A DNA stretch of 64,000 nt from Neocallimastix lanati (nom. inval.) (Eukaryota > Neocallimastigomycota > Neocallimastigomycetes > Neocallimastigales > Neocallimastigaceae). The notes beneath the pieces were generated by a model. It saw nothing but the letters and a program-made list of their open reading frames with translations. It was not told where the DNA came from and did not search any database. A program made the translations under genes and the position numbers. Location: positions 373,501 to 437,500 of the forward strand of contig JACVTC010000104.1 in NCBI GenBank assembly GCA_016946835.1, in the 5' to 3' direction. This document shows, piece by piece, positions 2,894 through 54,000 of the stretch (positions within the stretch are counted from its first letter, which is position 1; each line of letters begins with the position of its first letter).

Positions 2894-4381
2894 TGATGAT
2901 GATGATAATAATAATAATAATAATAATAATGATGATATTTATAATAATAAAAAAAATAATAATAAAAATGACACTTTGAATAACATAGTAAATGTGGAAC
3001 AAAAGAAATTATACTCGTTCAAAATGGATAATTTCAGAGAAAAAATTTATAAAATAGGAAATGCCAATAGTGGAAAATTTGAAACAAATAGTAATATTAT
3101 AATTACTAAAGAAGAAAATAAAAATAGTTTCACTGGTAATACAGATGTTAAGAAAAATCAAAATAATAATATGGAAATTAATAGTATTGTAACAATGAAT
3201 ATTAAAACTATTGATAATAATGAAAATATTAATTCATATAGTAAAAAGAATAAAGATAATAATGATATTGTAATGAATCCGTCAATTAAAACAGATTTTA
3301 ACAATAAAAAACACTTTACAATTTAAACAAATAAGTAAATTCTTTTATTATTAAATTCTTTTTTTATTAATTATAAATTTCTTTTATGTTATTAACTGTA
3401 AAATAGTTAATAACTAATACATCGATTTAATTGAGAAAAATTACATGTATTTATATTTTTTCTTATTACACTATTAATATATGATGTTATTTAATAATAT
3501 ATATAAAACTATTTATTTATAAACAAAAGATTTTTTAATTAATAATTTTTATTATTTATTAATTTACTAAAACTAAAATTAATTTTTTAAACTCTTTATT
3601 TTATTTATTATTTTAATACTTATAATAATTTTAATTATATATTTAATATTGAAAAACTATTTTTATAAATATTAACTATTTAAGATTATTCCTAAATTAA
3701 TATTTAACTATTTAAAACTAAACTAAGTTAACTAAACTAATTAAAAAATATTTTCAATTTAAAAAATAATTAATAAAACTTATATTAAAAAATAATTCAT
3801 ATACATTAAATAAATTAATTGTACGAAAAATTAAGCTATTTAATGTATTAAAGATTTATTAAATCTTTACAGATATTATTGAGAATTCTGAAAATATAAT
3901 TAACAAGAGAAATAGTAATAAAAATATAAAAGAAGTAATAAATAATAATGAACGTTTAAAAGTTGAAATTATTAACAATAGAACTAATAAATCTATAACT
4001 CCTAGTTTAGTAATAGAATCAAAAGTTATTATTAATAAAAATTCAAAAATAAACAATATTCAAGTTATTCCAAATGATAATAAAAACAAGCAATTTACAA
4101 ATAAAGTGTATTCAGTTAATAATAATAATATTTATATAAAAGAAAGAAAAATTATTAACAAAAATTCACCAATAGATGAATTTAGTAAAGTTGTTAATGT
4201 TGATAGTGATAAGAAAATAAAAATTAATAAAATTAAAAAGATAATTAAAATTCCAAATATTCGTATTAAAAATAACAATAAAAATAAAATAAATATTAAT
4301 AAAATTTTGATGCTCAAACCTGAGATTTAATTAAAAGAGATTATTAGTTATAACAACAATCGAGTTGATACAAAACGAATT
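2427..4381 (+). pseudogene. Asn/Asp/Lys-rich second ORF, split by a solo LTR
   Basis: The frame lies at -1 relative to Gag and is open from 2427. It reads through a basic segment (KRSRDEKYASLPKAKR), a motif YNLRNRKILKP, long runs of Asn and Asp coded by AAT/GAT repeats (2860-2935), and a charged segment with YSFKMDNFREKIYKIGNAN. An LTR inserted at 3269 breaks it, and it resumes at 3877 up to about 4330. The equivalent ORF in the 11292-13300 copy is continuous there. It takes the place of the charged linker ahead of the protease in Ty3 Pol proteins, but no protease or RT follows. Its function is unknown. Confidence 0.6.
3269..3871 (+). mobile_element. Solo LTR J1 (603 bp, TSD GATAT)
   Basis: The segment starts TGTAATGAATCC and ends AATCTTTACA, and is flanked by GATAT on both sides (3264-3268 and 3872-3876). 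The uninterrupted copy of the host ORF (reverse strand near 12290) has a single GATAT at this point, so the insertion and its 5-bp target duplication are directly proven. There is no internal coding region. A related LTR in the opposite orientation is at 7202-7958; the two share an ATCGATGTATTAG block. Confidence 0.88.
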
Positions 4382-5889
4382 TGGTGGTAGCCAGAAAATA
4401 AATCAATAGTACTTATAGCTTTAACTTCACCATCAATTGAAAAGAGAATTTCTTCTATAAAGGGGACGGAATAAGAATCTTTTATTGTTAATTCGTTAAG
4501 TTTCCGGTAGTCAATGCATAATCTCCATTTACCATTCTTCTTCTGAATCAGTACGATAGGAGATGACCACGTAGAGTGTGAGGGTACTATTAATTTCTTA
4601 TTAATTAATTTAGTTATTTCTTCCTTTAAAATGTCCGCTTTAGCTTTTGATAGACGATAAGAACGTTGTTTAACTGGTTTACTTCCTTTCTTTAATATTA
4701 TAGAATGGGGAAGTAATTTAGTTTCATTCAAATCGTCGGTACTGATGGCAATAATTTCGTCAAATTTGTTTAATAAATCTTTTATACTTTTTATAAGATC
4801 TTCATTATTAGAACCAATTCTGGTAGACAGAATTTCATTGAGTTTATGGGATCTATCGTTCTTTTCATTTTTGTTCTCATTATAGTTAAATAGGACAACT
4901 TCGTCAAGTATGACTTCGTCAGTACCTATTTTATATGGAATAAAGATTCCATTCTCCACGTTCTTTCGAGATGATTTATCCATCGACAAAATTAAGTTTC
5001 AAAGTGCACCATCTGGTACATCACCATCAGATATATCATTTTCAGTCTTGGTTTCGTCACTTCGATCTAGTTTTTCCAGGTCTTCGATGACTTCCCAAAG
5101 ATCAAATTTATTGACGATATCATTAATTTTCTTCGTGTCTAAATTAGAATTTATCTTACATAATTCTAATATAATGGGATTGATAAATAAATAATTTTTG
5201 ATAATAGTCTCGTAACAAATGATAATGTCGAATAAGAGGTTGTCTCTTTCCACAAGTCTAAAATTAGCATTAAATGTATGGGTTCCAATAGTTAAAGGTA
5301 ATTTGTATATAAGACCAGGTTTAGAATCGGAATCAGACAAAACTTGAACAATAGAACACGTAGCAATTCCAATTGGTTGTGGTTTGTTCGGTAGTTTATC
5401 AAAATAACTCTTTGAAATTAAATTGATACCGGCACCATAATCTAGATATACTTTAGAGGGAATATCAAACATTTTACATCTTGAGATAGCAATTTTTCCT
5501 TTATGAACTAAATTAACGATAGGATTATCCTTATCTAATTTTAAATTCTTAACAAGATCGGCTCTAACCTTCGGACTGACATCAAGCAATTGAGTATAAG
5601 AGATGTTTGCCGGAGTAGAGTTCAAGTCCTTCACCATACTATAACTTGGTTCGTTGCTAATCAACTTGATGTGCTTTGGAATACTTCTCTTCTTGATTTT
5701 CTTGTTATCTTGTATATCTTCCTCCATTATAAATTGTTCTATCTCTTCCCTATCATCATTCATTGGAGGGGGGTCCTTTAGATTTTTGTCTGGATTCTTC
5801 GGCTTCTTCTTTGCACTCTTCTTATCTTCCTTCTTTTCATTCTTCTTTTCCGCTTCCATGTTCTCTTTAATGCTATTTATTTCTTTCAA
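4348..5889 (-). pseudogene. Ty3 Pol fragment: protease and truncated RT (element A)
   Basis: The first frame (5889-4999, 296 aa) has a Lys/Glu-rich linker, the conserved motif ahead of the protease (YTQLLDVSPKVRADLVKNLK) and a retropepsin-like site written DYGAGINLISKSYFDKL, where the usual D-T/S-G-A reads DYGA. The second frame (4989-4348) carries the start of RT: SHSTWSSPIVLIQKKNGKWRLCIDYRKLNELTIKDSY in pieces, then STIDLFSGYHQI. The YxDD box, RNase H and integrase are absent because of the junction near 4381. A frame change separates the two parts near 4990. Confidence 0.8.
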
Positions 5890-14580: not shown

Positions 14581-17500
14581 TTATATTGAAGCTAAGTAGG
14601 GTTTAACATTCTTAACATGGACGTTTCTTTCTAGTATTTTGTGAGTATCTATAGTTTCTAAAACAAGTGTGTTAAATTTAGAAGCCTTAATTACTTTAAA
14701 TGGTCCAATGAAAAATGGATCTAATTTCTTTCTCCCAATGTAGCGAACTAGAACTAAGTCACCAGGTTTATAGGTATGGTTCATACTATCAACTGCTTTG
14801 CTTCTTTGAAGCCAGTAAGAATGAGCTTGCTTTATGTTTTCCATGGCTTCTTTTACCCATTTTTGATGACGAATGAATCCTCTTAAATTATATTCATCAT
14901 CTGATTCATTTTTTTTTGGCAATGTCAGGAATAACAACACTCAATGGCCATAGATCTTTCCTACCATATAGGAGTTCAAAACTACTGAAACCGGTTACGC
15001 TAGACCTAGAAGTTCGAAGTGCCCATAGGGAAGCTGGAATATATTCATCCCAGTTTGCTTGATAAAGACAGAGATGTCTTAATATTTTAATGATTTCTCT
15101 GTTCCTGTTCTCGACCTGTCCATTAGCTTCTGGATGGTGAGGAGCAACAAACTGAATCCACGAACCATATAAATCAACCATTGTTTTAATGACATCCGAC
15201 GAGAACTGCGTGCCATTATCTGTTATTATTAGTTCCGGCACACCGTGTCTTGCAAAAACATCTTTAAGAAAACTAATTACATCTTGACTTTCTATTTTCT
15301 TTAAAGGTGATGCCTCTACCCATTTAGTAGTGTAGTCTACAAGTCCGATTAAGTATTGATTTCCTTTACCTGTAATCGGTAGAGGACCTACAATATCAAG
15401 GCCTACTCTAACGAATGGTCTTTCAACAGGAGTGGGAATATTCGAAAGGTTTTTACTTATAGGCTTCGGACGATAACATTGGCAACGTAAGTATGTTTTA
15501 ACATGATTATTTACATCGTTTCTCATACCTGGCCAGTAGTACGCTTCTTTTAGTCTTTTGAATGTTTTCTCGGCACCTTCATGGCCCACAAGATGAGCCT
15601 TACTAATTAAAGAGGATTTAGTAGAATCGTCCTCTATCACTTTTAAAAATTTACCATTTTTGTCTTGAAAAACAAGTTGCCCATTATATAAAGAATAATT
15701 ATTTTTAACATATTCAATGATTTGGGGAGGAACGAAGGAAGAGGTGTCATCGCTATCAGTAAGGATAGACTTAATAGAACTAATACGCGAAGGTAAACGA
15801 GACAGAGCATCTGCAAAAACGTTATTTTTACCTTTTTTGTAAATTAAATTAACTCTAAACTCATTAAAAATTGAAATCCACCTAAAATGACGGTCTTTGC
15901 TGGGAATACTATTATAAAAAAAACCAACCAAAGGTTTGTGGTCAGTATAAATATTGACTGGAAAAGGATAAGCGGCTATATAAGAACGAAACTTCTTTAA
16001 AGCAAAGATAACTGCAATACCTTCTTTTTCGGTGACAGAGTAGCGGGTTTCAGCATCTTTTAAACAACGGCTTACACAATAAATGGGAAATTCTATGTTA
16101 GAATCGTCTTGGACTTGTAACAAAACAGCACCAACAGCGTAAGAGGATGCATCAGTCCGTATGATCAGTGGGCGGTGTGGATCTGGGTATTTCAAGACTG
16201 AATTTGAACAAATGACATTTTTAAGATTGTTAAAGGTGTCAGTATGGATGTTTGTCCAGTGAAATGGCTTTTTTGGACTAGTAAGTTTATATAAGCAGTT
16301 AGAGATACCTGCAAAATTTGGGATAAACTTCCGGTAATAGCTGATAAGGCCCAGAAAGGAACGTAGTTGAGTAACGTCTTTAGGAGTATTCCACGAGGCT
16401 ATTGCAAGAACTTTAGAGGCCATAGGCTTAATGCCCTCTCTGGTGAGCATGTGGCCAAGAACTTCAACTGAACCTTTACAGAACGAACACTTTTCGAGGT
16501 TAATAGAAAATTTATTATCTCTCAAAATGATAAATAATTTTTCTAAGTCTTGAAGATGCTGTTCGAATGTCGGAGAATAGACGAGAATGTCATCCATATA
16601 TACGAAAAGACAAACACCTATTAGTGGCATAAGAATACGATTCATCTCCCGTTGGAAGGTAGCAGGAGCATTAGTGAGTCCAAATGGCATTACTAAGAAA
16701 TTGAAATTTCCAAACTTTGTCGTAAATGCCGTTTTTTCAACATCTTTTGGGTTCATTGGAATTTGATGGAACCCTGAGAATAGATCAATAGCAGAGAAAA
16801 ACCTAGCTCCGTGGACCGATTCCAAAAGTTCATCAATGAAGGGGAGAGCGTATGCATCTTTTATAGTAATTTGGTTAAGTCGACGGTAGTCGACACACAT
16901 ACGCCATTTACCATTTTTTTTGCGTACTAGTATGACTGGGAACGACCAAGGTGAATGTGACGGTTCAATTAATCCATGGTTTAATAACTAAATAATTTCA
17001 TCTTTGAGGGCCTTGGATTGTTCCAGTGAGATTTTGTAGGGTCTTAATTTGATCGGTTTTTCATTGGTAAGTTCTATTGTATGTGGTTCAGCTTTAGCAA
17101 TGGATGCATCATCAATAGAATTTATAAGTACATCTTTATATTTGTCAATAAGATTATTAAGTTTTATGTTATCAATATCACTAAGTTCAATACCACCATC
17201 AGGAAGTTCAGAATAAGCGGGGAATTCATCTGGATTACTATAAATAGAGATTCTAAATAATCTATTTGATGTAGTGATATCAGTTGGATGCGCTACGAGT
17301 ACTGGGTTGGTGTCGGTTTTCATATACAGGGCATCATCGTCTGGATTGACGAACAAACGATAATTTTTGTGAACCTGGCGACCTATGATAATATCATAAG
17401 AAGGGTCGTCGTCGTCCAATATATAGAAGGGAGCATTAATGACAAGATTTTCAAATTTTAAGCATAAATTAATAACTTGATTAGTGGAGGTCATATTCTT

Positions 17501-23199: not shown

Positions 23200-24043
23200 A
23201 TGGCTAGAAGAACAAATAGACTCAATAACAAGCAAGTAACTAATATTACTGAAGAAAATCCAAACCCAAAAGGATTCTCCTTTAATTATTATGAAAATTT
23301 TAATCATGTTACGGAACTGACTACGGAAAATTTCTTAAATTTGAAAACCAACATCTTCTACCTTTTAAGCATTAATAATTTAGACAGCTACATTGGGGAT
23401 CAAAAGGTCAAGAAATTAAGAAAAAAGGATATAAGAGGAAATTTAAACGATTATATTACGGATAAATTTGATACATCTCTTGTATATGAACTCGGAACGT
23501 CGGAAGAAGACATCAAAAATGATATACTTGTCAAGTGGATAATCACAAATAGTCTCGGTGAAAATACTAAAAGGATCTTGAATAGTCATAATAAAACTGC
23601 CTACGAAATTTGGAAACTACTTAATAACTCGTTCACAATGGGAGAAGAACATCAAAAGATGATATTAAAGGATAAACTCAATAAGTTAAAATACAACATG
23701 GAAGATGACATACATATATTTCTATCAAAATTTCAAAACTTAATTGATGACCTTGAGAGAATAGACAGTGACCTTAGCGATAATGTAAAGGTTGGGATGT
23801 TAAATCGATCTTTACCAGAAAACATTCGCTGGGTAAATGTCTTTCAATTCAATAATAACTGGAAGGGTTGCTGTAGTTATCTAGAGAGAATTATTCCAGA
23901 CATAATATTTTCAAAAATTAGAGAAAATACTATAACCGAGAATCAACAAAGTATCTTTAATGTTACAACACACAACATGAATAACAATGACCAAATTAAA
24001 AAGAATAACAAAAGAAAAAGAAAAAATGGTAAATGCTACTTGT
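23200..24043 (+). CDS. Copia Gag (element D), cut inside its zinc knuckle
   Basis: The frame starts at ATG 23200 (MARRTNRLNNKQ) and covers the copia-type Gag domain (UBN2/Retrotran_gag_2 family), with the typical YEIWKLLNNSF, LKDKLNKLKY, FLSKFQNLIDDLE and MLNRSLPE motifs. It reaches a basic stretch NNKRKRKNGKCYL and is cut there by chromovirus C. The last codons and the sequence resuming at 29979 join as KCYLCGKFGHYKKEC, a complete C-x2-C-x4-H-x4-C knuckle. In the present DNA the frame runs 5 bp into the foreign LTR and stops at 24048. The Gag part itself has no lesion. Confidence 0.9.
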
Positions 24044-24689
24044 TGTAACGGAGGTGCTTCTATTGTAAAGGCGGGATGAGATATAGAAACACAGAAAGGA
24101 GAAAACTCAATAGGTTTACACTATCTGTATAAATAATTCGTTTTATTAGAAATATTTTTTTTATTAATTATAAAATTTAAAATAATTATTAATATTAATC
24201 AACAAGGTAATATTTCGAATTACTTATACGTTAATTATTATTAATAAAAGCACGAAGAAAAATATTTTCATTCGTGAAGTTCGCACTATTTATACTTTTA
24301 ACGGAAAAACAGTTTTAACATGTAAAAATAATTTTAAAGAAATATTTAGAAATATGTTTGTAATAATTAATAATGTAAAGTTTCTAGAATATAGATTTTA
24401 ATTGATGAAAATGAATCTTATTAAAAAAGAATAAAATAATTTATATAATAAGGATTTCTAAATTCATTTCGGTTGAATTACGAACCGAAAGAATCTTTAA
24501 CTTTCTATAATTTTATACAGAAAGAATATTCAAGAAGATATTATTAATAATTAATAAAATAATTAATAAAATAATTATTTATGCAAAATGGGTTGAGGTG
24601 TGAGTCGAACCCATGAAGTATTGATCATGGTCAATGTAACTGACCATTGAACCAAGGTTCTAATTTTACTAACTGAGGATTTCGTTACA
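24044..24689 (-). repeat. 3' LTR of chromovirus C
   Basis: On the + strand it starts TGTAACGGAGGTGC and ends GGATTTCGTTACA. It is the same length as 29333-29978, and I found no difference on reading both through. TATA box, RNA start region and tRNA-like A/B boxes are present in both copies. Confidence 0.95.
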
Positions 24690-25017: not shown

Positions 25018-27465
25018 TTAGTTATTATTGTTAAATTCTTTTAAGAGTTTGGGGCAATTTAAATTTTCTTCGGGTTCCCAAGATGCTTCAGATAAAGGAT
25101 AACCTTTCCATTTAATAAGATATTGGGTTTTGCCATAATGTTTCCTTTTATCAAGAATTTTTTCAACTTCGTATTCTTCTTCATTGTCAATAATTATCGG
25201 TGGTGGTGGTTCTTTCTTTCGTCCAAAGTGATCTTCATAAAATGGTTCAAGTTCAGAAACATGTATTACAGGATGGATTCTGATTTCTTTTGGTAAGTCT
25301 AACTTATATGAGACGGGAGAAATTTTCTTAATGATTTTATATGGACCAAGTTTTCTGGGTTTAAGTTTTTTATTTCCATTATGAATTATAAGTGAACTAT
25401 TAATCCACACTTTATCACCAGGTTTAAAATTTGGAGCTTCAATACGATGTTTGTTTGCGAATTCTTCTTGCTTTTTTCTTGCTTGTTGTAAATTTTCACT
25501 AAGTGTTTTAAATAATTCTGAAAAATCTTTTGTAAATTCATCAGCTCTAGGAACATCTGTACTGTTTGGAATTGATGGTGAATATCTTGGATTATATCCA
25601 TAGTTTGCATAAAAAGGTGAGTGCTTAATTGATTCTTGAATTGAATTATTATAACTGAATTCTGCTAGGAATAAAAAATTATACCAATCAGAACCTTTAA
25701 AGTTTGAATAACATCTTAAGTATTGTTCAATAACGGAGTTCACCCTCTCCGTTAAACCATTGGTTTGGTGATGGAAGGGAGAAGCAAGTTTTGTTGTAAT
25801 ATTGAAGGATTTACAAATAGCTGACCAAAATTTTGAAGTGAATTGAGTATCTTTATCGGAAAAAAAATCGGAGGGTGGTTTATGAATATGGAAGAGGTCA
25901 TTTATGTCTTTCTTGGGAACAAATAAAACAGAAGCAGCAGCTGGAGATTTAGATTTTCTAATAAATTTTTTGTCTTCATTTTCTTTAATATAATTCTTCG
26001 AAGCTAGAGGTTCTTTTACAGTTAAGGGGTAGATTGGGTCATAATGAAGTTTTTCATTTTGTTTGGGTTTAATCTCGCTATCAAAAGGACAATAAGGAGG
26101 TGATTCATTAGTGTATATTTTACTGAAAGTGTCTATAAAGGGAAGTAATTTTTTTGGTAATGATTTGCTTATTTTATTATTGATTTCTTCATTTTCATTT
26201 TTGTCATTTTGTTTAGTAGTATTTAAAGGAACATAAGAAGTAAAGGAGTTAGGGATGATTAAACAATTTTCAACGCAATAATTGGAATTAAATCTTAAGA
26301 CTTTATTTTTAAAGTCAATATCAGGATTGTGAGTAGAAATCCATTCGAAACCTAAAATAGCACAATAAGAAGGAAGGTTAACCACATAGAATTGAGTCTT
26401 ACATTTATGGTTATTATAAGTGATGGAAATAGGAAGAGTTTTTCCAAGAATAGTTTGCTTTCCACCAATGCCAGATACCTTAGGGAAATTAGTTTTGGTT
26501 GAATACGGGATATTATTTTCTTTAATATAGTAGATATCCATTAAATTGATTTGAGAACCAGTATCGAGAAGAATTTTAGCAGTAGAATTTGTATTATCAA
26601 TACTTAAAGAAAATTCGTAAATAGGAAGATTTGAGTCAGAAACTCTGGGTCTAGATATAGGTTTTGATTCGGGATTAGAAACATAAGTGCTACTTGATGA
26701 AGGTTTATTTTTATTTTTATATTTATTTTTAAGTGGACAATTGTCGAGAGAATGTTCAGAGGATCCACAATACAAACAAAGATTTTCTCTTCTTCTTCTT
26801 TCTTTTTCTTCTTGAGATAGAGGTCCATGAGGTTTGGATTTAAATTGTTTTTGGAAAAAGAATGATTTTTTGCCCTTTTTATTTTTATTATTATTATTAC
26901 TATTATTTGAATTTTGACCTTGAAGATTGGAGAATTGTCTATGAGTAGAAATACGATTATCGATTCTAGATGCAATTGTTTGCATAGCAAAGAGGGTTTG
27001 AGGTCCAGGAAACATTTCTAAAATTCTAGTAGCAATATGGTCATGTAGACCGGCAAGAAAGGCGTCCATCTTGGCTTCTTCATTCCAAGAAGATTCATCG
27101 GCGTATTTATTAAATTCTAAAATATAATTTCTGACTTCACCAATTCGTTTTTGTTTGATTGTTCTTAATTTCTGATTCGCAATAAAGGTAGAATCGTAGC
27201 TTCCAAATACTGATTTTAATCTAGCAATGAATTGATTATAATTAAGGAGACAAGGATCTTGGTTTTCAATGAGAGTAGCAGCCCAATTCATGGCGTTTCC
27301 ATACAAACGAGAAATGATATAGATTACTTTAGCTTCATCGTTTGCAAATCTTTCTGGTTGAATCATAAAAATAAGTTCCATTTTAGCTAGAAATCCTTTA
27401 AAGAATCGACGATCACCAGCAAAACCATCCTTAAAGGTAGGATTTTCTTGATTATAGTTGTCCAT
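25018..27465 (-). CDS. Chromovirus Gag-Pol with in-frame deletion of RT/RNase H
   Basis: This 815-aa single ORF has a Gag capsid region (residues 15-180), a zinc knuckle ([14 protein letters not shown], 230-243) and a protease ([12 protein letters not shown], Asp at 301). The start of the RT region (VLFVPKKD, to about 520) then jumps to the middle of integrase ([14 protein letters not shown] at 533, NGLTERVN with Glu near 573). RT, RNase H, the integrase zinc finger and the first catalytic Asp are gone, yet the frame stays open. The C terminus keeps the GPY/F module ([18 protein letters not shown]) and a chromodomain ([26 protein letters not shown]; 764-811), which in this family binds modified histone tails and guides integration. 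A single Gag-Pol ORF is also seen in Tf1. Confidence 0.92.
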
Positions 27466-30813: not shown

Positions 30814-32941
30814 CTCAAAACTCAAAAATAAACCATTTAAAAACGTTAAAAACAAAACTTTTCACATTTTTGAGTTAATCCATATGGACTTGGTAGGACC
30901 AGTTACAACTTCCTTAAATGGTTATAAATATTTTCTAACAATTCTGGATGATTTTTCACGTTTTGGATGGATAATCTTCATTACAAATAAATATGAAACT
31001 TTTGAAAAATTTACTCTCTGGTATAACAGAATATCAAATATTTTTAATACTAAAACAAAATATATTCGAACTGACAATGGTAAGGAATTTAAGAACAAAA
31101 GTTTTGAACAATTCTGCCAAACTAACGGGATTATTCAACAATTTACAGTCCCATTTAATCCAGCACAAAACGGACGATCTGAACGCTTTAACGGAACATT
31201 AATCTACTGCGCCAAATCACTCCTAAACGAATCAAAATTAAGCCATAACTTTTGGGAGTTTGCGGTGGATACTGCAAATTTTATTCATAACCGTTTACCT
31301 CATCAGGGAATTAACAATAAAATTCCCTATGAAATCTTATACAATAAACCAGTTAATTATAACAATTTTCGAGTTTTTGGATGTCGTGTCTATTTTTTCA
31401 TCCCTAAAGAATTTCGCTCAAAATTTGACAATAATTCTCATCCTGGTATCTTTCTAGGCTATAGCGAAAATACAAAGGCGTATAAAATTCTAGATATTAT
31501 AAATCATAAAATTATTCTTTCCAGAACTGTTGAGTTCCTAGAAAATCAACCTGGCAACACTTATTTCCATTACACCAATAACGAATTCAGAGAGGCTGAT
31601 TATACAAATAACAATTTTATTAAAAATTTAAAACACCTTGAAGGCAATTATTCAAAATATAACAATTACAGCAATGATAATTATAAAAAACATAATAATA
31701 ATTACAGCAATGAAAAGAACACTCAAAGCAACAATAAAGACAATAACAATAACAATAACAATAACAATGAAAATTATACCACTCAAAATAATAACAATAA
31801 TAAAGAAAATAATTTCATGGAAAATAAAAAAGTCAATGATAATAAAGTTGATTCTACAATAAATAAAAACAACACAATTAATAATAATTATAATGGAAAC
31901 AACAAAAATTACAACAAAAATAATAATGAAAAAGAAATTAATAATAATGGTAAAATCAATAACAATTTAATTGAAAATTATTCAGATACCAACACATCAC
32001 AATTTACTATAAATAACACTAATAATGAACATTTTTTAAGTCATCAATTAAATAAAAGCCATTCATTACACAGCACATCTAAAAGAAAGTCAATGTTTAA
32101 CAATAACAAATTAAATAAACGTTTTAAGTCTAACAAAAACAATAAAGTTAATAATCCCTTAACAGATCAGTTTAAAGAACCAATATATTATAATGACATA
32201 TTCAAATTAAAGGATAAAATAGAATGGATAAAAGCAATCCGAGAAGAACTAACAAATATGGAGAAACTTAAAGTGTTCGATATCATAAGAAAAATTCCCC
32301 CAAACACCAATGTAATATCTTCAAGATGGTTATTTAAACTAAAAAGGAATTCCGAAGGAGATATCATCAAGAGGAAAGCCAGATTGGTGGCGAAAGGTTA
32401 TAATCAAAAATACGAAATTGATTATAAAGAAACCTTTGCCCCAACACTAAAACAAGACACACTTAGAATATTTACCGTAATAGCTGTTATAAATAATTTT
32501 AAAATAAAACAAATAGATGTAAATTCGGCATACTTAAATGCCCCAATAGAAGAAGATATATACATGATAGCACCTGAAGGACACTATTCTCATGGAAAAT
32601 ATTTTTGGAAACTCAAGAAGGCACTTTATGGATTGAAACAGGCCGGAAAACAATGGAACAACAAATTAAATGAAGAGTTACTTAAAATGAACTTTAGGAG
32701 AATTAAAAGTGAACCATGTCTGTATGTAAAATTTGATAATGATAAAAACATAATTTGTATATTATCAGTCTACGTAGACGACATTCTGATTGCAGGAAAG
32801 GAAAATGAAATAAATAACGTCAAAAAATCAATTAAAGAGAAATTTAACATCAAAGATATTGGAGATGTCGAATTCGTTATTGGAATCAAATTTGAAAAGG
32901 TCAAAAATGGTTATATTCTTCATCAATCAAGGTATGTGTAA
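30797..32941 (+). pseudogene. Copia integrase and reverse transcriptase (element D)
   Basis: It begins with KCQICINSK and FHIFELIHMDLVGP. The integrase catalytic residues lie in MDLVGP, IRTDNGKEF and NPAQNGRSERFNG. After a long Asn-rich spacer (31600-32150) comes RT: SSRWLFKLKRN, RLVAKGYNQ, QIDVNSAYLNAPIEEDIYM, YGLKQAGKQW and the active-site YVDDILIAG near 32770-32795. It is cut by TAA at 32939-32941 after HQSRYV. Apart from these ends the 685-aa frame is unbroken. Confidence 0.9.
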
Positions 32942-39159: not shown

Positions 39160-42100
39160 TTATTTAGACTTCGTCCCTGAAGTCTCTAATTCACATAATT
39201 TATAAGGAACTATATTTTTTAGATGTACATTCCTATCAGAAATTTCGCCGGTAATAGGATCTGCGAGAGTAACTGTATTAAATTCCTTTTTGATGATTTT
39301 CAGTGGGCCTACGAAATAAGGATCTAATTTTCTTCTGTTTATTAATCGTATTAATACTAGGTCTCCTGGATTGTAGTTGGCTTTCATTCTTTTCATCTGG
39401 TTCCTTCTGTCTTCCCAAATTTTGTTGGCTGTAGTGATATTATTAATTGCTTCATGAATCCATTGGTAATGTTTAGCAAATTTTCTTATAAGGTATTCCG
39501 TAATACTTTCACCTTTTTCTTTTTTATCCAGATTTAAAGATAGCTCGAAGGGTTGTAAGTCACGACGGCCGTAGAGTAATTCAAAGCTTGAAAATTTTGT
39601 TACTTCGTTTTTGCAGGTACGGAGAGCCCACAAAGCACTTGGTAGAATTAAATCCCAATTTTCTATATTTTTATTACATAATATTCTTAGATATTTTCCT
39701 ATTTCTTTATTTCTGTTTTCTACCATACCATTAGATTCAGGATGATAGACAGAAACAAAGTGCACATAAATACCATATAAATCTAGGAAAGCTTTAGTTT
39801 TGTCGGACTTGAACTGGGGACCGTTATCCGTTATTAATATTTCGGGAACTCCATGTCTTGAGAAAACTCTTGTTAAGAAGACTATTATATCATCAGATTC
39901 AATCTTGACAGTGGGTTCAGCTTCAACCCACTTTGTTAAATAATCGACTAATACTAGGATATACTGATTTCCATTTTTTGTTTGTGGTAAAGGGCCTACT
40001 ATATCCAGTCCTACCTGGGTAAAAGGTAATCCCGGCTTTGTTGGGATGTGTTCGGTGTTTGAATTGAAAGTTTGTGGTTTGAACAGTTGGCAGTGTTTAC
40101 ACGTATTGACTATGTATTTTACATCCAAGACCATGTTATTCCAATAGTAATCACGTTTGAGCCTGTTATACGTTTTGAAGATTCCCTCATGGCCTATCCT
40201 ATGGGCTTCTAATAATAGTTTAATTTTTTCTTTATCTTCTTTAATTACTTTTCTGAATGTGCCTCCATCTATAAAATATTCTTCATTGTTTATTCTTGAA
40301 AATTTTTCTTCAAACTTCTTTAATAACAAATTTTTTCCTGTATTAATTTCTTCTAAATAGGTAGCTATTACTTCCGATGGTTTTGATCTAAGTCGAGATA
40401 ACGCATCCGCTAATACATTACGTTTTCCTGGTTCGTAAATGACTTTAACTTTTAACATAGAGAACATAATTACCCATCTTGACTGTCTGGCATTTAAGGT
40501 TTCTTTACTTTTGAATATACTTATTAATGGTTTGTGATCTGTGAACAACAATATTTCGAATTTACTTCCCGAAATATAGGATTTAAATTTTTTAACACAA
40601 AAAGCGGCGGCAGCTCCTTCTAAATCTGTAATCCCATAGTTTACTTCAGCTGGTTTCAAAGTTCTGCTCATATAATGTATTGGTTTTTCGATATTATTTT
40701 CATCTTTTTGTATCAGGACTCCACCTATTCCATCTTTTGAGGCATCTGTCCTGATTATAAATTGTTTGTCGAAATCAGGCATTGATAAAATAGGGGCTGT
40801 GATTAATCTTCGTTTAAGTTCTTCAAAGCTCTCTTGTTGAACAGCTTCCCAAGAAAATTTTACATTCTTTTTAAGTAGTTTAAATAGAGGTTTGGCAATT
40901 GTTGCAAAGTTGTATATAAACTTCCTATAATAACCTACTGCTCCAAGAAATGATTGTAATTGCGTGATGTTGGTAGGAGGTAACCATTCACGTATAATCT
41001 CAATTTTTTTATTAATTGGTGATATTCCTTCAATTGATACTGTGTGGCCTAATAATTCAACTGATTCCTTGAAAAAATCACATTTGTCGAGATTGATTTT
41101 TAATCCATTATCCTTTAGGATATCAAATACTTTCTTTAAATCTTCTATGTGTTGTTCAAAAGTTGGAGAGAATATGATTAAATCATCGATATATATAAAC
41201 ATACACTTCCCAATGAGCGGAAAAAATATCCTGTTCATCTCTCTCTGGAAGGTTCCTGGGGCATTGCATAAACCAAACGGCATTACCCGGAATTGGTAAT
41301 TACCGTACATTGTTGTAAAACTTGTTTTGGGAATGTCTTCATGGAACATTGGAATTTGATAAAAGCCGGAGAATAAATCTATTGTTGAAAATACTTTAAC
41401 TTTCTTTCCGATTGAGAAAAGTATATCATCTATTAGTGGCAGAGAATAAGCGTCTTTAATAGTAACGTTGTTGAGCTTCCGAAAATCTATACACATTCTC
41501 CATTTATTATTCTTCTTCCTTACAAGAATAACTGGAGAAGACCATGGTGAACTGGATGGTTCAATTAAATGGTTGTTCAGTAATTTAATTAGTTCTTCCT
41601 TCAGGGCGTCTGCTTGTACTTTAGATAATCGATAAGCTTTTTGTTTGATTGGAATCGTATTTTCTTCTAAACTGATATGGTGCGGTAATAACTTTGTTGA
41701 ACCTAATTCATCTATTTTTATTGCTAAGATTTCAATATTATCTTTTAATAGTTCCTTGAATCGGCCTCTAACTACTTCTATTGTATTTTTTATAATTTGT
41801 TCAATTCTTGTCTTCTTTTCTTCAATGATTGTATTTTCTTCTTTGTTTTTTTTATTTTCCTTAATCGTAATTGCATTCTGTATTTCTGCTGATTCTTTGT
41901 TTATGAAACAAAATAACATGGAGTCTGGATTATCTTGCATTTCAGTTTCTTCAATTTTTACTTCTTCATCTATTTCTTTTTCTTCTTCATCTATTTCTTT
42001 TTCTTCTTCATCTATTTCTTTTTCTTCTTCATCTATTTCTAAAGCTGAGATTGTTGTAAATGTACCATCTTTCTTCATTTTACATAGACTATTACGAATA

Positions 42101-43002
42101 GGATTAATGAATAAATTATTATCCTTTAAGGTCCTAAAACCTATCAAGATATCAAACAGATCCTGATCATGTTCTATTACTCTAAATACGTCTTGAATAA
42201 TGAAATCGTTGAATTCAACTGTTAAATGATATAATTCAGAGGATATGTGGGTCTTCGAAGTTACCTGTATAATATTGTTAGTTGTATAACCAAATGGTTT
42301 TATATTTTTCAACTTGCCTAAAAACTTACTCGTTATTATGTTGATGCTTGCACATGTATCTAAAAAGGCGAATCCATCTTCTCCGTTAATTTTACATTTA
42401 GTAGTAGCTATATCCTTCCTTGAGACAGTAGATAATACCATTTCTTCCATTTTTCCGTTATGAGGTGTTTCTTTTAGCTTTAACAATTTATTAAGTTTAG
42501 CTCGTAATTTTGGACTTATTTCCAACAATTGAGCCAGAGTTATATTAGCTGTGGTAGATGTTAAATCAGTTACAAGATCGTACTTTGCTTGGTTTTCCAT
42601 TATAATAATGTGTTTCTCCTTTTTGTTATTTGGATTCTCTTCATTTTTATTTTCGATTCTCATTTCTTCTTTATTTTTATCATTTTTTAATCTTTCGCAT
42701 TTATTCTTCTTTTCTTCCATTTGAGTACTGGGTAGTTTAGCTTTAACCTTTTTTCTCATTTCTTCTTCTTCAGGTTTCTTATCCATTATTTCTGATATTC
42801 TTTCCTTCTTTGAATCCCTTTTTGCTTTGTTTATTGATGGGTTGGCTATCACAGACAAGTCAATTTCTTTTAAGGTTTCCGTTTCTTCTCTATTTTTTGG
42901 GTTATTTAAGGGTTCTTCTTCATTGTTACTTTTTGGTTCATTATTAATATTTTCTACTTCTACTTCCATTTTTCGATCATTTGTTTGTGATTTCGAAAGC
43001 AT
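39160..43002 (-). CDS. Ty3 Pol polyprotein (element E), intact
   Basis: This 1280-aa frame has a Lys/Glu-rich linker (1-130), the motif LAQLLEISPKLRAKLNKLLK, a retropepsin-like protease site FLDTCASINIITSKFL (Asp near 213) and an acidic repeat in which EIDEEEK occurs four times (about 325-350). RT follows (SPWSSPVILVRKKN, YIDDLIIFS near 600), then RNase H (RTDASKDGIGG, TDHKPLISIF), the integrase zinc finger HRIGHEG with CKHC, and D-D-E in GLDIVGPL, ITDNGPQF and HPESNGMVEN. It lies in the -1 frame relative to Gag and is open without ATG up to the Gag end. The first ATG at 43002 is therefore not necessarily the start; a -1 shift near the Gag stop is likely. Confidence 0.93.
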   Translation of the reverse strand: MLSKSQTNDRKMEVEVENINNEPKSNNEEEPLNNPKNREETETLKEIDLSVIANPSINKAKRDSKKERISEIMDKKPEEEEMRKKVKAKLPSTQMEEKKNKCERLKNDKNKEEMRIENKNEENPNNKKEKHIIIMENQAKYDLVTDLTSTTANITLAQLLEISPKLRAKLNKLLKLKETPHNGKMEEMVLSTVSRKDIATTKCKINGEDGFAFLDTCASINIITSKFLGKLKNIKPFGYTTNNIIQVTSKTHISSELYHLTVEFNDFIIQDVFRVIEHDQDLFDILIGFRTLKDNNLFINPIRNSLCKMKKDGTFTTISALEIDEEEKEIDEEEKEIDEEEKEIDEEVKIEETEMQDNPDSMLFCFINKESAEIQNAITIKENKKNKEENTIIEEKKTRIEQIIKNTIEVVRGRFKELLKDNIEILAIKIDELGSTKLLPHHISLEENTIPIKQKAYRLSKVQADALKEELIKLLNNHLIEPSSSPWSSPVILVRKKNNKWRMCIDFRKLNNVTIKDAYSLPLIDDILFSIGKKVKVFSTIDLFSGFYQIPMFHEDIPKTSFTTMYGNYQFRVMPFGLCNAPGTFQREMNRIFFPLIGKCMFIYIDDLIIFSPTFEQHIEDLKKVFDILKDNGLKINLDKCDFFKESVELLGHTVSIEGISPINKKIEIIREWLPPTNITQLQSFLGAVGYYRKFIYNFATIAKPLFKLLKKNVKFSWEAVQQESFEELKRRLITAPILSMPDFDKQFIIRTDASKDGIGGVLIQKDENNIEKPIHYMSRTLKPAEVNYGITDLEGAAAAFCVKKFKSYISGSKFEILLFTDHKPLISIFKSKETLNARQSRWVIMFSMLKVKVIYEPGKRNVLADALSRLRSKPSEVIATYLEEINTGKNLLLKKFEEKFSRINNEEYFIDGGTFRKVIKEDKEKIKLLLEAHRIGHEGIFKTYNRLKRDYYWNNMVLDVKYIVNTCKHCQLFKPQTFNSNTEHIPTKPGLPFTQVGLDIVGPLPQTKNGNQYILVLVDYLTKWVEAEPTVKIESDDIIVFLTRVFSRHGVPEILITDNGPQFKSDKTKAFLDLYGIYVHFVSVYHPESNGMVENRNKEIGKYLRILCNKNIENWDLILPSALWALRTCKNEVTKFSSFELLYGRRDLQPFELSLNLDKKEKGESITEYLIRKFAKHYQWIHEAINNITTANKIWEDRRNQMKRMKANYNPGDLVLIRLINRRKLDPYFVGPLKIIKKEFNTVTLADPITGEISDRNVHLKNIVPYKLCELETSGTKSK

Positions 43003-46519: not shown

Positions 46520-48175
46520 GCTTTTCTGGTTGAAATTTATTCCGATTAAAAAAAAAATTTCCACTCTATCCTTTTTCTTTTAAACCAAAATAATATTTCC
46601 TTTTGCTGTATTTATTCATGAGCTTGATCTGCTGTATCATTCACTTTTAATTCCATTATTATAATTTCTCCATATATTTTATTTTCTTCTTTAGGATAAA
46701 AAATAAAATTTACTTTTTCATTACCTTTAAGATCTTCTTCAACAATATTATAATTCGTTCGAGCATGAAAATATGCATAATATATAATACTTTTAAATTT
46801 GAATGATTAATTTTATCCTCTGAACTTATTATTTTCCAGGTGTGATTTTGTTTAAAGTTTCACATATTCTTTTTGACATTTTTTATTTAATGTCACTTCC
46901 AACATTTCATTGGAATTCTTTATCATATAATAAAAAAATTTCAGTATCATTTCTTTTTTTTTTTTTTTTTAAAAAAAGTCTATAAAATTTCCCTCCAATT
47001 CTTTTTTTGGAATGGATATTATTCCATCACAGTATGTTAAATATCCAAAAGTAACCATTTTTTAAATATAATTCATCCTTCAAATATTAATGATTTTCTA
47101 ATTCATTTTGGATATTATGCACTCTATAATTTTCTAATTGAATTTCAATTTTATTATCATTAATTAATTCTAAAATATCTTCTTTTACACCAACAATATC
47201 GTAAAACAATATCGTAATTAATTATTCTTTTTCACTTCTTCGTAATGTCCTGATTGTGTCCAATAATTTTTAATGTTATTCGAATTTAATGCATTTACAA
47301 TTGACCAGGGATTAAAAAAAATTTTTTTTTCATTATAATAAGTTTTATATCCATTATAATGTTTTTTCTAAATCTTCAAAGGTTAATTTTTTATTATTAC
47401 TACATAAGATCTCGATTTTTTTGTTCAGTAAAAATCCAAAATATTGATATTATTTTTCATCATCTAACATAGTATATTCACATAAAACAATCTATTGGAG
47501 ACGAAAAAATTCACTGCAATTGGTATTATTCCCGTCTTATAAGCAAAGGCTAACTAGGAACAATCTTTAATTAAATCCTTTTTTAAAAAAACATAGATAA
47601 TTGTTGCGTTCTTTATGTGTAAACATTTTACTGATGATTATGTAGTCCCATTTATTAATAACAAGAACAAACTTTTTATCTGTTTCTGAATATAATTTAT
47701 TTAAATTTACACTTAAATCTTCATCATATTTATTAAAAATTTTTAGATTTAGGATAAAGTTCTTCAAGATCTAATTTTATTTTCGTATTAATTTCAGATT
47801 TAAATGCCTTTAAAGTTTCGAAAGAACTAACATGACTTTATTAATCTGAATATACGGTGTGATATTTTCCTTGAAATATTGTTTAATTTTTTTTCTCTTC
47901 ATTATCGGTAATTCATCCTTTGAATACTTTTAATTTATCAAATATTTTTTCGGAATCAATATTTTCACTATAATACATTACTAACTTTGCTACTATTGAG
48001 GTTTTACCAAATCTTCTTGGTTTTGTAATGCATACATATTTATTAGAATTTTTATCAATTAATACATTAAAATCATTTATGACATTCAATTTATCTACAA
48101 AAATATTTTTGATAAAATAAACCTTTAAAATTTTTCACACATATCCTCATTTTCAATAATTAACTTTTTTTTTTT
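46520..48175 (-). pseudogene. Decayed AAA-ATPase-like / PD-(D/E)XK nuclease gene
   Basis: On the minus strand, read across frames: VDKLNVINDFNVLIDKNSNKYVCI, a Walker A-type KPRRFGKT (48023-48000), AKLVMYYSENIDSEKIFDKLK, then LYSETDKKFVLVINKWDYII. The family normally has IDEYDYI there, so the Walker B acids are lost. It continues KMFTHKERNNYL. The C-terminal part (46780-46600) has ARTNYNIVEEDLKGNEKVNFIFYPKEENK and IIIMELKVNDTADQAHE with the E-x-K of a PD-(D/E)XK nuclease fold. Many stops and frame changes. Architecture fits the AAA-ATPase-like (PF09820) plus PDDEXK_9 family as I remember it. Confidence 0.6.
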
Positions 48176-50222: not shown

Positions 50223-51044
50223 TTATAATTCATATCCTAATACACAATAGTCCACATTTCTTCTTAAATATACAACAGGATTAACGAGTTGGAAACCAAT
50301 GTACATAAAGGAATGAATTAATAATTTTATATCTTGTTTATTCTTTCGAATACAAATTACAATTTTTTCACAACCAAAGATTTCTTCAGCAAGGTCTAAT
50401 AACGAAGTCATACTTTCTTGGAAATTCCAATTACATTCTGTTGGAAGTTCAACAAATAAAGTAGTATTTTTTATAAATGCATAGAACACATTTACACCGT
50501 GACCATCTAATCGATTAGATATTAAAGAGACATATAACAAGTTCGGATCGTCCCCTTCACGGCCGATGACTTCGTTTTGAAATCTTTCACAGCCCTCCAG
50601 TAAACCCGCTCGTAATACATTGTTTATCGAAGCAGAGTCAGGAATACCACCCTTTTTATATTTTAATTTTATTTTTTTATTTTTTGATAATTTTTTTTTA
50701 AAAAAAATAATAAAATTTATTAAAAATAATTATTATTTAATTATTTATTCTTAAATATATATATTTTTCTAAAATTCATTTTATTATTTTTATTATATTT
50801 ATTTTAGAAAAAAATAATATTTACCGGTTTTGGTACCGCTGGTGTAATAATAATTGACAGTTTTACCCATTTTAGAGTAAATAGTGCATAAGGCAAGAGG
50901 GTCTTCATAGTTTTCATAGTAAGGCTCCTCAACCTCATCTAAGAAGGCCATGATTGATAAATCATTAATTGGATTATTATTTTCACTATTTAAATTTATG
51001 TTTGGATTTATCATACTGTCAAATTTTTCTTTCTTTTTTAACAT
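50223..51044 (-). CDS. OAZ1: Ornithine decarboxylase antizyme (two exons, +1 frameshift)
   Basis: Antizyme binds ornithine decarboxylase monomers, sends them to the proteasome and limits polyamine uptake. Exon 1 is 51044-50825 (ATG, then KKKEKFDSMINPN). After an intron, exon 2 starts at 50651 and reads Gly-Trp-Tyr-Ser-stop (TGG TAT TCC TGA). A +1 shift at TCC-TGA, skipping the T at 50640, opens a frame from GAC (50639) to the stop at 50223. The full product would be about 215 aa (77 + 138); human OAZ1 is about 228. The second frame shows the family core: TTLFVELP, ESMTSLLDLAEEIFGCEKIVICIRKNKQD and SFMYIGFQLVNPVVYLRRNVDYCVLGYEL in pieces. No lesion other than the programmed shift is seen. The first ATG is taken; a second ATG lies at codon 11. 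Confidence 0.93.
50634..50651 (-). promoter_or_regulatory. Antizyme +1 programmed frameshift site
   Basis: The minus strand reads GG TGG TAT TCC TGA CTC from 50650. UCC-UGA is the shift site of most animal and several fungal antizymes, where polyamines favour +1 slippage with UGA in the A site. Zero-frame translation ends at 50638; the +1 frame goes on as Asp-Ser-Ala. I did not find a convincing 3' pseudoknot by eye. Confidence 0.92.
50652..50824 (-). other. Spliceosomal intron in antizyme gene (173 nt)
   Basis: The donor is ACCG|GTAAATATT at 50824 and the acceptor AAAAAG|GGTGG at 50652. The intron is almost pure A/T, while both exons are mixed. Only this junction joins the first frame to Gly-Trp-Tyr-Ser and the shift site. 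No other AG lies near the acceptor. Confidence 0.85.
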
Positions 51045-54000
51045 CCGTTTTGAAAAATTTTAAATTTTTTAAATAATATTAGTGTTTTTTAATTTTTATT
51101 TTAGATTATTTTTCTTTTTTATTTTTTCAATTGATTATTAGTTTGTTATTTAAAGTATTTAGTTTAATATTATGAAATTAACTGCTTTTTATTTTAATTT
51201 TTGATTTTGTTTTTATAGATCTTTATTTAATATCTTTTAAAAGAATTGCTTTTTTTTATTTCCTTTTTTTTTTTTTTTTTAAAAAATTTCTTAAAAATAA
51301 AAGATTTCTTTTTTTTAAGTAAAATAAAAATTACTATTAAAGATAATTTTTTAAATTCTTTCTTTAATTTTTTTATAAAAATAAATTTTCAAAGTAAGAA
51401 AAATTTCATGGTATTTATAAGAAAAATAAAAATAAAGTTAGGGTTAATTTTTATATTAATAATTTATAAATAAACAAAACTTCATTTTATATTTAATAAT
51501 AATTTATTTTTTATTTATTTAATTAAAATAGTAGATTAAATAATATGATTGAATAAACATTATTTATTAACAAAAAAGAATTGTTTAATAATTTATTAAT
51601 TAACCATATTCAATATTCATTATTCAAAATTTAATATTTTATATTTTATATTTAATATTAAAAAATTAGTATTAAATATTAAATTTTTTATAATAAATAG
51701 TAAATATTAAAAATTAAATATTAAATTTTTAATAATAAACTTTTTTATATTTATTTTTAATGTTTTTTAACCAAATTCTATTTTTAATTTTTAATTTTTT
51801 ATTCTATTTTTTAAATAGATGTATAAAAGAATCTAATAGAAATATATGAGAAATGGAATGTATTGGAATATATTATTAATTTATTTAATATATTAGTAAT
51901 ATATTAATTGATTTATTTCAATCTATTGTAAATCTATCATCCGATAAAACTTTCAAACCTCAAAACATTGAAAAGAATAAAAATGTTAAATAATAATAAT
52001 TATAAAAATATTTATTATTATTAAAAAATTTATTATTATTAAAATATTTATTATTTATTATTTATTATTCAATTATTTTATTATTTATTATTTATTATTT
52101 ATTATTATCTATTATTTATTATTATCTATTATTTATTATTATCTATTATTTATTATTATCTATTATTTATTATTATCTATTATTTATTATACAATTATTA
52201 TTCAATAATTATTATTTATTTTTTTTTTTAATTATTGAATAAGGTCATATGAATTAATTACTAGAAAGTTTAAATTATTATAATTTGTTAATAAAGATTG
52301 ATTTTCTAATTTAATAAATATAAACTTTATATATTTATAAATAATAAATAATTCAATATATATATATTAATTATAAAATCTTAATACAATTGTAATATAT
52401 ATAGTTTATTAGACATTTAAGTGAAGAAGTTGAAAACTTTAAATTAAAATTATCTCAATATTATTCTAAAATGAAAGAGAAAAATGAATAGTAATGTATT
52501 ATTATATATAAACTATTCCATATAGGCTTTTAGTTTCAATTGATCTTTAATATAATTAATATATCAATTAATATAACAAATATATAATTTAATACATTTA
52601 ATATATTAAAAAGTATATTTATTTATTTATATCTATTTTATTTTTTTTTAAAACTTTAAAATAATTTTATTCGTATTTGCCAATGGGAATACTTTATTTC
52701 ATTGCATTTTATGGACAATTAAATATTTACATATATTAAAATTAACTTTGAGTTTTATATGAATAAGTAATATAAATAATTTACATATATTTGAATAGAA
52801 CCTTAAATTTTCATATATATTAAAACATATTAATGAGATTAATTTGAGTAAAAACTTTAAAATAAAAACAACAAAACAGTAAAATGGATGATTTTTATTA
52901 TTTTTATTATGTCAAAAATAATTTTAATTTTTATAAAACCATATCATATATCACATTTCATTTCACATGATTTATATAAATTATTGTATTTATTCATAAA
53001 TATCATTAATATATGTATAACCAAATTGTTTTAAAAGTAGATATGAAAAAAAAATATATATGAAAATGATGGGTTATTTTATTAATTTATTATTCTATAA
53101 TTATTATAAATAAAAACTATTTCATTTTTATTTTAATACTATTCCATTTAAATAATAGATATATTTTATTATTATTGATTTATTCAAAATATTAATATAT
53201 CATCTACTCTTTTATGATTACTAATGCTATCTTACTAAAAAAAAAATAAAAAAATACTATTAATAATAATAAATATTAAAGAAGAAGAGAATAAAAAAAA
53301 ATATATTTTTTATTTAATTTTAAAATGTGAAAAAGTTTAAAATTTTATCTTTTTTCGATATTTAATAAATTTTTTTTTATTTTTTTATTTTTAAGGCAGA
53401 TAAAAAATTCTGAGTAATCATATATTAATAATACTATTCATAATATATGTAATAATTTATTTTATTTTAGTTTAGTTTTTGTTAAATTTTTTTTAGTTTT
53501 TTTTTTTTTTTTTTCATTTATTAAAAATTAAAAATAAAAAATTAAAAAATTAAAATTAAAAAAAAAAAATAAAAAATTTCAATATAAAATAAAATTTTTT
53601 TTTTATATTTTAATTATCTGATTTCCATATAAAGTAATTTTTATATATTTATTAAATTTTTAATAATTGAATTTAAAGAGAAAATTAATTTTAATTTAAA
53701 TTTTTTTTTCTTTTTATAAATTCTTAATTAATAAAATAAAAAAAAAAGTATATATAAAATAAAAGTAAAAATAATTTGAGTAGATAATTTATCATAATTA
53801 ACAATTAAATATAAAAAAAGAATAAAATAAAAAGAATATAAAGAAATGATATTAATAAAATATTTTCTTTTATATCAATATATAATATTTATAATAAAAC
53901 ATGATTCTAGATGAATATAAATGTTGATTAATATCTTAATATGTAACAATAGTATTGAGAAGAAAAGTACTAATTCTTTTTTTTTTTTTTTGATATAATT

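Follow-up and report, generated by a model that had tools for sequence, protein, structure and literature searches.

The window, a stretch of 64,000 nucleotides on a 667,577-base contig of the 199-Mb, 762-contig genome of the anaerobic gut fungus Neocallimastix lanati, carries on its minus strand what its sequence indicates to be a real and intact antizyme gene with a canonical +1 site (Table 1). The two exons are separated by an intron with a GC content of 4%. In the spliced mRNA, ORF1 comprises 77 codons with T-G-W-Y-S as the last residues, and the UGA starts at position 50640. The +1 frame, read from GAC, encodes 138 residues and ends in a TAA stop, and the joined product is 215 aa long.

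Table 1. Features of the antizyme gene, of its second genomic copy and of other coding stretches in the window (positions are those of the window unless stated otherwise)
Feature	Position	Strand	Remarks
Exon 1	50825..51044	-	ATG at 51044; ORF1 codons 1-73 and first base of codon 74 (MLKKKEKF...TSGTKT-G)
Conserved ORF1 C-terminal peptide, exon-1 part (YENYEDPLALCTIYSKMGKTVNYYYTSGTKT)	50825..50924	-	+1 overlap: database N-terminus MKTMKTLLPY...
Intron, 173 nt, GTAAATATT...AAAAAG	50652..50824	-	spliced joint read in 10/10 junction-crossing database proteins
Exon 2	50223..50651	-	ORF1 end (G-W-Y-S-UGA), shift site, ORF2
UCC-UGA shift site	50638..50643	-	UCC 50643-50641, UGA 50640-50638; UGG-UAU before, C after; identical in L003
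ORF2, antizyme core	50223..50639	-	+1 frame, 138 codons and stop; PF02100
Exon 1 of second copy	L003 2366-2147		ORF1 with 10 substitutions over 231 nt relative to the window
Copia-type / Ty3-type LTR retroelement or gag-like coding	1363-2406, 4351-4989, 14909-16900, 23200-24045, 25021-27465, 30884-32938, 39163-43002
AAA-ATPase_like fragment	47916-48134		PF09820, 31.0 bits

LTR retroelement or gag-like coding fills much of the window. There are 18 ORFs of at least 150 aa, nine of which were scanned together with one shorter ORF; seven of these nine large ORFs carry retroelement-type domains (RVT_1 at 4351-4989 being just under the cut-off), and the other two gave no domain match. The initial annotation had described the antizyme as the only clear host protein gene in the 64 kb, which is roughly right among the nine of 18 large ORFs scanned.

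The sequence UGG-UAU-UCC-UGA is present in both genomic copies of the gene, as is the two-frame layout with ORF2 in the +1 frame after the ORF1 stop. UCC-UGA is the commonest antizyme shift site, according to a 2016 review (PMC5009743). The first frame ending in Trp-Tyr-Ser-UGA and the 138-codon +1 frame, which had been noticed in the window at the outset, are thus found in both copies, and the database protein P0011 also ends in WYS. The 12-mer TGGTRBTCCTGA occurs 104 times in the genome, compared to 39 times for the reversed control, and the site alone is therefore insufficient as evidence against chance. The length of the overlap between the frames is also weak evidence: when the codons of ORF1 were resampled, a +1 frame free of stops over the 41 codons before the site arose in 10% of the sequences under the gene's own codon usage and in 25% under uniform usage. 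Beyond the shift site, frame 0 contains 11 stops (UGA counted) and the third frame 12. Since frame 0 has further stops past the UGA, reading the UGA as sense would not yield the protein, and UGA reassignment was rejected, as these further stops occur in both copies.

The first AUG of ORF1 is in a weak context, with C at -3. The third AUG in frame 0 lies 31 codons further along and is flanked by A at -3 and G at +4. Two starts are likewise present in mammalian AZ1, where initiation favours the one 34 codons downstream (PMC5009743, in part). This likeness is not conserved, because P0011 lacks the third Met.

For ORF2, the homology to antizymes is clear. PF02100, with a curated cut-off of 24.2 bits, was matched by the joined protein at 51.8 bits (E 9e-14) and by the 168-aa ORF2 open frame at 52.7 bits (E 4.8e-14); the antizyme-profile search of the joined exons, which had been proposed as a check, therefore found the expected similarity. 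The ORF1 peptide alone matched no Pfam family at E 1, and ORF2 matched none of the NCBIfam models, which serve bacteria and archaea. In the PDB, the joined protein retrieved human and rat-type antizymes (4zgy at 5.8e-8), and a profile of eight ORF2 sequences (A2) retrieved 4zgy, 4zgz, 5bwa, and 1zo0 at 1.4e-10 to 2.6e-9, the best match being human AZ1 (5bwa_B, E 1.4e-10). The AlphaFold2 model of ORF2 (mean pLDDT 68.6) has mixed strands and two long helices, with residues 1-33 disordered. The assignment as an ornithine decarboxylase antizyme with a UCC-UGA +1 site is thus borne out by PF02100, by the solved antizymes and by the second copy, and the shift itself would take place by analogy with these antizymes.

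The predicted partner enzyme is also encoded in the genome: PF02784 was found at one place, in a 455-aa ORF of the eukaryote type whose match to human ornithine decarboxylase stands at 1.5e-134 (L006 1306-2673, G000:C37), and the spermidine synthase family PF01564 was likewise found at one place. The interface residues were compared by hand from printed alignments, with the human contacts taken from PMC4595762, in part. On the antizyme side (human numbering, hand-read), E165, K178, and Y216 are retained, whereas K153 is altered to Gln, A157/V158 to Thr/Ser, R188 to His, and F192/L193 to Tyr/Ile, and E219 falls past the C-terminus. On the decarboxylase side, also hand-read, P113, Q116, D134, D361, and N398 are retained, whereas Q119 is altered to His and V137 to Asp. 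In the human pair, V137 is packed on A157/V158, and the changes of 119 to His and 137 to Asp weakened binding of human decarboxylase (PMC4595762, in part). In the fungus, Thr/Ser in the antizyme would face Asp137 of the decarboxylase, making both sides polar, and position 137 and positions 157-158 may therefore have co-adapted, which is a speculation from two sequences.

A second PF02100 place lies on a 507,854-base contig (G000:C40), and a search with the ORF1 protein against the whole genome found only the window and C40 places. The C40 copy retains the intron position, the GTAAATATT donor, UGGUAUUCCUGAC, TGGTATTCCTGAC, and both frames, and its intron is 105 nt long, compared to 173 nt in the window. 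In ORF2, 69 of 414 aligned columns differ between the copies, one 3-nt gap included. The dN and dS values between the copies were 0.016 and 0.196 for ORF1, and 0.122 and 0.459 for ORF2. In the last 37 ORF1 codons, four silent and no replacement changes were observed (dS 0.205), and the same four substitutions, when read in the +1 frame, are all replacements. At the residue level, 0/37 positions differ at the end of ORF1, compared to 27/137 in ORF2 (Fisher 0.0015); within ORF1, the difference between the N-terminal part (3/40) and the C-terminal part (0/37) is not significant alone (P 0.24).

Searches with the joined protein and the ORF2 profile yielded twelve proteins, ten of which (P0001-P0009 and P0013) span the exon junction. 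All ten begin at a +1 Met in exon 1 (MKTMKTLLPY... or the next Met) and continue across the spliced joint into GGIPDS. These results indicate that the gene callers followed the open +1 frame of the spliced mRNA, so that ORF1 was lost, and the sequences imply that the antizyme N-termini of gut fungi in the databases are +1 translations of exon 1, an annotation error across several genera. The entries belonging to this same gene family and listed with a +1 N-terminus and no ORF1 include P0007 from Piromyces finnis, the UniRef name of which starts with 'Ornithine decarboxylase antizy...', P0004 from Piromyces sp. E2, the Orpinomyces-labelled P0003, and P0006 from N. lanati, the sequence of which is the translation of the C40 copy. 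The initial annotation had anticipated that gene callers would miss or split the gene; the failure did occur, in the form of a wrong-frame start with ORF1 dropped in all of the ten junction-covering proteins.

P0012, a 105-aa fragment, is the window's own product, and P0014, a remote antizyme of fungal appearance (43% over 51 residues), lacks the +1 N-terminus. The ORF1 search yielded P0010, a relative's ORF1 running into the unspliced donor, and P0011, a 69-aa diverged fungal ORF1 with the end TKTGWYS. No relative was found among the 43 pattern matches on viral contigs. The contigs behind several of the junction-crossing proteins are short (916-1284 nt) and lack the intron, which suggests transcripts as the source of several entries, the contig type not being stated. 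P0002 is of the C40 type at its start and of the window type at its end, and may, from its sequence, be an assembly chimera or a recombinant of the two copies.

As the ten N-termini are +1 translations, the overlap of codons sets limits on what the frame-0 codons can be, the minimum frame-0 differences being lower bounds and the sequence rows being related. Among the distinct +1 replacements relative to the window in the ten proteins, 14/16 had a route that is silent in frame 0, compared to 52/181 random +1 replacements (binomial 1.7e-6) or, for transitions only, 30/59 (P 0.0026); the 16 events are not phylogenetically independent, and the ten proteins include P0002, the possible chimera, and P0006, the C40 copy. 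The frame-0 minimum was 0 or 1 differences in 10/10 proteins. For P0013, with an ORF2 identity of 57%, 9/31 positions differ in the +1 frame, whereas at most 1/30 differences are required in frame 0. In a simulation without frame-0 constraint, P0013 was the only strong case (P 0.006), and the values for the others were 0.03 (P0002/P0006), 0.07 (P0004/P0007), 0.10 (P0008), 0.10 (P0009), and 0.21 (P0003/P0005).

In addition, 31/33 residues of P0011 beside the site are identical to those of the window, whereas only 15/34 aligned residues are identical before them. The last 30 residues of P0011 before Ser are co-encodable with the +1 peptide of P0008 without a mismatch, as if the two came from one kind of mRNA, and the ORF2 of P0008 is 73% identical to that of the window. 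The pattern of changes silent in frame 0, together with P0011 and P0013, indicates at the sequence level that ORF1 is a translated frame under purifying selection in frame 0, and that its end is more conserved than the antizyme domain.

The locus is thus very probably an ornithine decarboxylase antizyme gene with a UCC-UGA +1 shift and feedback on the decarboxylase, in which the shift, the polyamine response, the binding and the degradation would proceed as in the rest of the family. In antizymes, ribosomes either terminate at the UGA or slip by +1 at UCC, the two outcomes being in competition; polyamines promote the shift, and the decarboxylase is inactivated and removed (PMC5009743, in part). 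On the spliced mRNA, most ribosomes would terminate at the UGA of the ORF1 end UGG-UAU-UCC-UGA-C, while a fraction would advance by a single base (UCC-U|GAC) and go on through a further 138 codons to produce antizyme. Polyamines would raise the shifting fraction. The resulting antizyme would attach to the monomer of ornithine decarboxylase, block its activity and target it for proteasomal degradation, which would complete a negative feedback loop.

ORF2 could in principle be produced without a frameshift, by initiation at a +1 AUG in exon 1 to give a 173-aa protein (MKTMKT...PKP-GGIPDS). All of the ten junction-covering database proteins have that start or the next Met, and A occupies -3 at two +1 AUGs, which lie at nucleotides 127 and 136 counted from the first AUG. 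Ribosomes would, however, first have to scan past three AUGs in frame 0, of which one combines A at -3 with G at +4. Moreover, the +1 N-terminus drifts whereas frame 0 stays, as seen for 4/4 substitutions between the copies, for 14/16 replacements, and for P0013 (9/31 +1 differences against at most 1/30 required in frame 0, simulation P 0.006). No antizyme is known to be produced by +1-frame initiation, and we regard this origin as extremely improbable here. Scarcely credible is alternative splicing that would bring the two frames together with no need for a shift, even though 13 GT and 18 AG sites form 20 frame-joining pairs with introns of at least 40 nt; in one of these, the real donor would be combined with an AG whose last base is 50609, an AG that the second copy shares, to skip 43 nt and give 201 aa. 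Such splicing would remove GGIPDS..., which is invariant in the eight-sequence alignment, and 50825/50651 is used in 10/10 junction-crossing proteins, some of which are gene models and several of which are, as the intronless contigs of 916-1284 nt suggest, probably transcript-derived. Transcripts joining the two frames, which would have argued against the initial annotation, were not seen among these proteins. It is also very unlikely that the window copy is a decaying duplicate, although two copies exist, retroelements surround the window copy, and its own product is in the database only as the fragment P0012; the splice sites and both frames are intact, dN/dS is low, and P0001, from contigs of at most 1284 nt, is spliced and 99% identical to the window over ORF2. 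The likeness of exon 1 in the two copies may have arisen via gene conversion with a tract limited to exon 1, in contrast to the intron (71/105 aligned) and the upstream region (254/395 aligned), which have diverged between the copies; P0011 and P0013, however, are independent evidence for the conservation of the ORF1 end.

Within antizyme frameshifting at UCC-UGA, the reading favoured above, the conserved end of ORF1 calls for an explanation. Its last ~33 residues (NYEDPLALCTIYSKMGKTVNYYYTSGTKTGWYS) might, as a tentative proposal that we consider somewhat doubtful, form a nascent peptide that would act in the exit tunnel as both stimulator and polyamine sensor in Neocallimastigomycota, replacing a 3' RNA structure. 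About 33 residues is close to the length that fills the ribosomal exit tunnel. Beside the site, the peptide is conserved with silent changes in its codons (0/37 versus 27/137 differing residues; P0011; 14/16 replacements). The Gly/Pro pattern described for codons -8 to -5 (PMC5009743, in part) is, however, only partly present, as G-T-K-T, with Thr at -7.

A 3' stimulatory structure is frequent but not universal in antizymes, and no convincing one was found in folds, consensus or Rfam. In pseudoknot-free predictions, the 141-nt folds after the site were no better than shuffles in either copy (z -0.38 and -0.34), and 60- and 90-nt sliding folds gave nothing common to both; the strongest single windows (z -2.1, C40 at -90 and +105) are uncorrected for several dozen windows. 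The two-copy consensus alignment contained 0 pairs changed on both sides, and the Rfam scan found no antizyme element. A match to a Tetrahymena snoRNA in Rfam was dismissed as chance (17.8 bits versus a gathering score of 80).

It is slightly more probable than otherwise that the frameshifting is of the ordinary antizyme kind and that the ORF1 end is kept for a folded protein, for localisation or for an mRNA 5' stimulator. The dS of ORF1 (0.196; last 37 codons, 0.205) is under half of that of ORF2 (0.459), and the mRNA GC content is raised to 42-52% in the 50-nt windows that run from some 53 nt ahead of the UCC to 72 nt past it, a region extending to about 120 nt past it, compared to 18-40% elsewhere, which hints at constraint at the RNA level. 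Together, the low dS and the raised GC make an mRNA-level 5' element also possible, although no RNA structure explaining the GC-raised region was found. One 60-nt ORF1 window in C40 folds at z -2.1, a fold that C7 does not share. On the other hand, silent changes are tolerated at the ORF1 end and replacements are rare. Human AZ1 ORF1 has a length of 68. Residues 69-228 of human AZ1, without the N-terminal part, are enough for decarboxylase binding (PMC4595762, in part), and the conserved ORF1 stretch therefore need not serve this binding. As for localisation, mammalian ORF1 carries such signals (PMC5009743, in part).

Compared with eukaryotic antizymes such as human AZ1, the gut-fungus gene has the same two frames, a predicted +1 shift at UCC-UGA, UGG as the second codon 5' of the site and the conserved C-terminal domain, but its ORF1 sequence is unrelated to anything found outside gut fungi, no 3' structure was detected, several AZ1 contacts are changed, and there are two copies in one fungus. 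Shifting in Agaricomycetes is stimulated, and tuned to polyamines, by an ORF1 peptide of 11 residues (PMC4505036, in part). As in the gut fungi, the site-adjacent ORF1 peptide of the Coprinopsis antizyme is conserved with silent third-position changes, whereas the site there is UUU-UGA and the peptide has 11 residues (-15 to -5), compared to UCC-UGA and about 33 residues of a different sequence here (PMC4505036, in part). The basidiomycete 3' double stem-loop was not found in the gut-fungus gene. Saccharomyces cerevisiae OAZ1 is likewise a fungal antizyme with a +1 shift before C (UGA-C), but its site is GCG-UGA, at which shifting is intrinsically high, and its nascent peptide lies close to the ORF2 end (PMC5009743, in part).

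No antizyme paper for Neocallimastix or anaerobic fungi was found in the literature searched, and with the present gene, strictly anaerobic gut fungi would join the organisms that have the polyamine-antizyme frameshift circuit. The gene also corrects a systematic annotation error, the wrong-frame start of 10/10 junction-covering database proteins, and illustrates how conservation of the true frame can be recovered from a wrong-frame database N-terminus through the overlap of codons. Agaricomycetes were the sole bioinformatic nascent-peptide case so far in the 2016 review, which predicted others (PMC5009743, in part). The gut-fungus gene lends itself readily to testing whether antizyme frameshifting is under nascent-peptide control beyond Agaricomycetes; if so, these fungi would be a second such lineage, with an unrelated sequence and a UCC-UGA site.

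Upstream of the gene, a block ~380 nt before the ATG (AACCCTAA...TATAAATACCAT; window 51400-51460, L003 2630-2690) is common to both copies, whose flanks have otherwise diverged. This block is likely, from its sequence, to be the core promoter.
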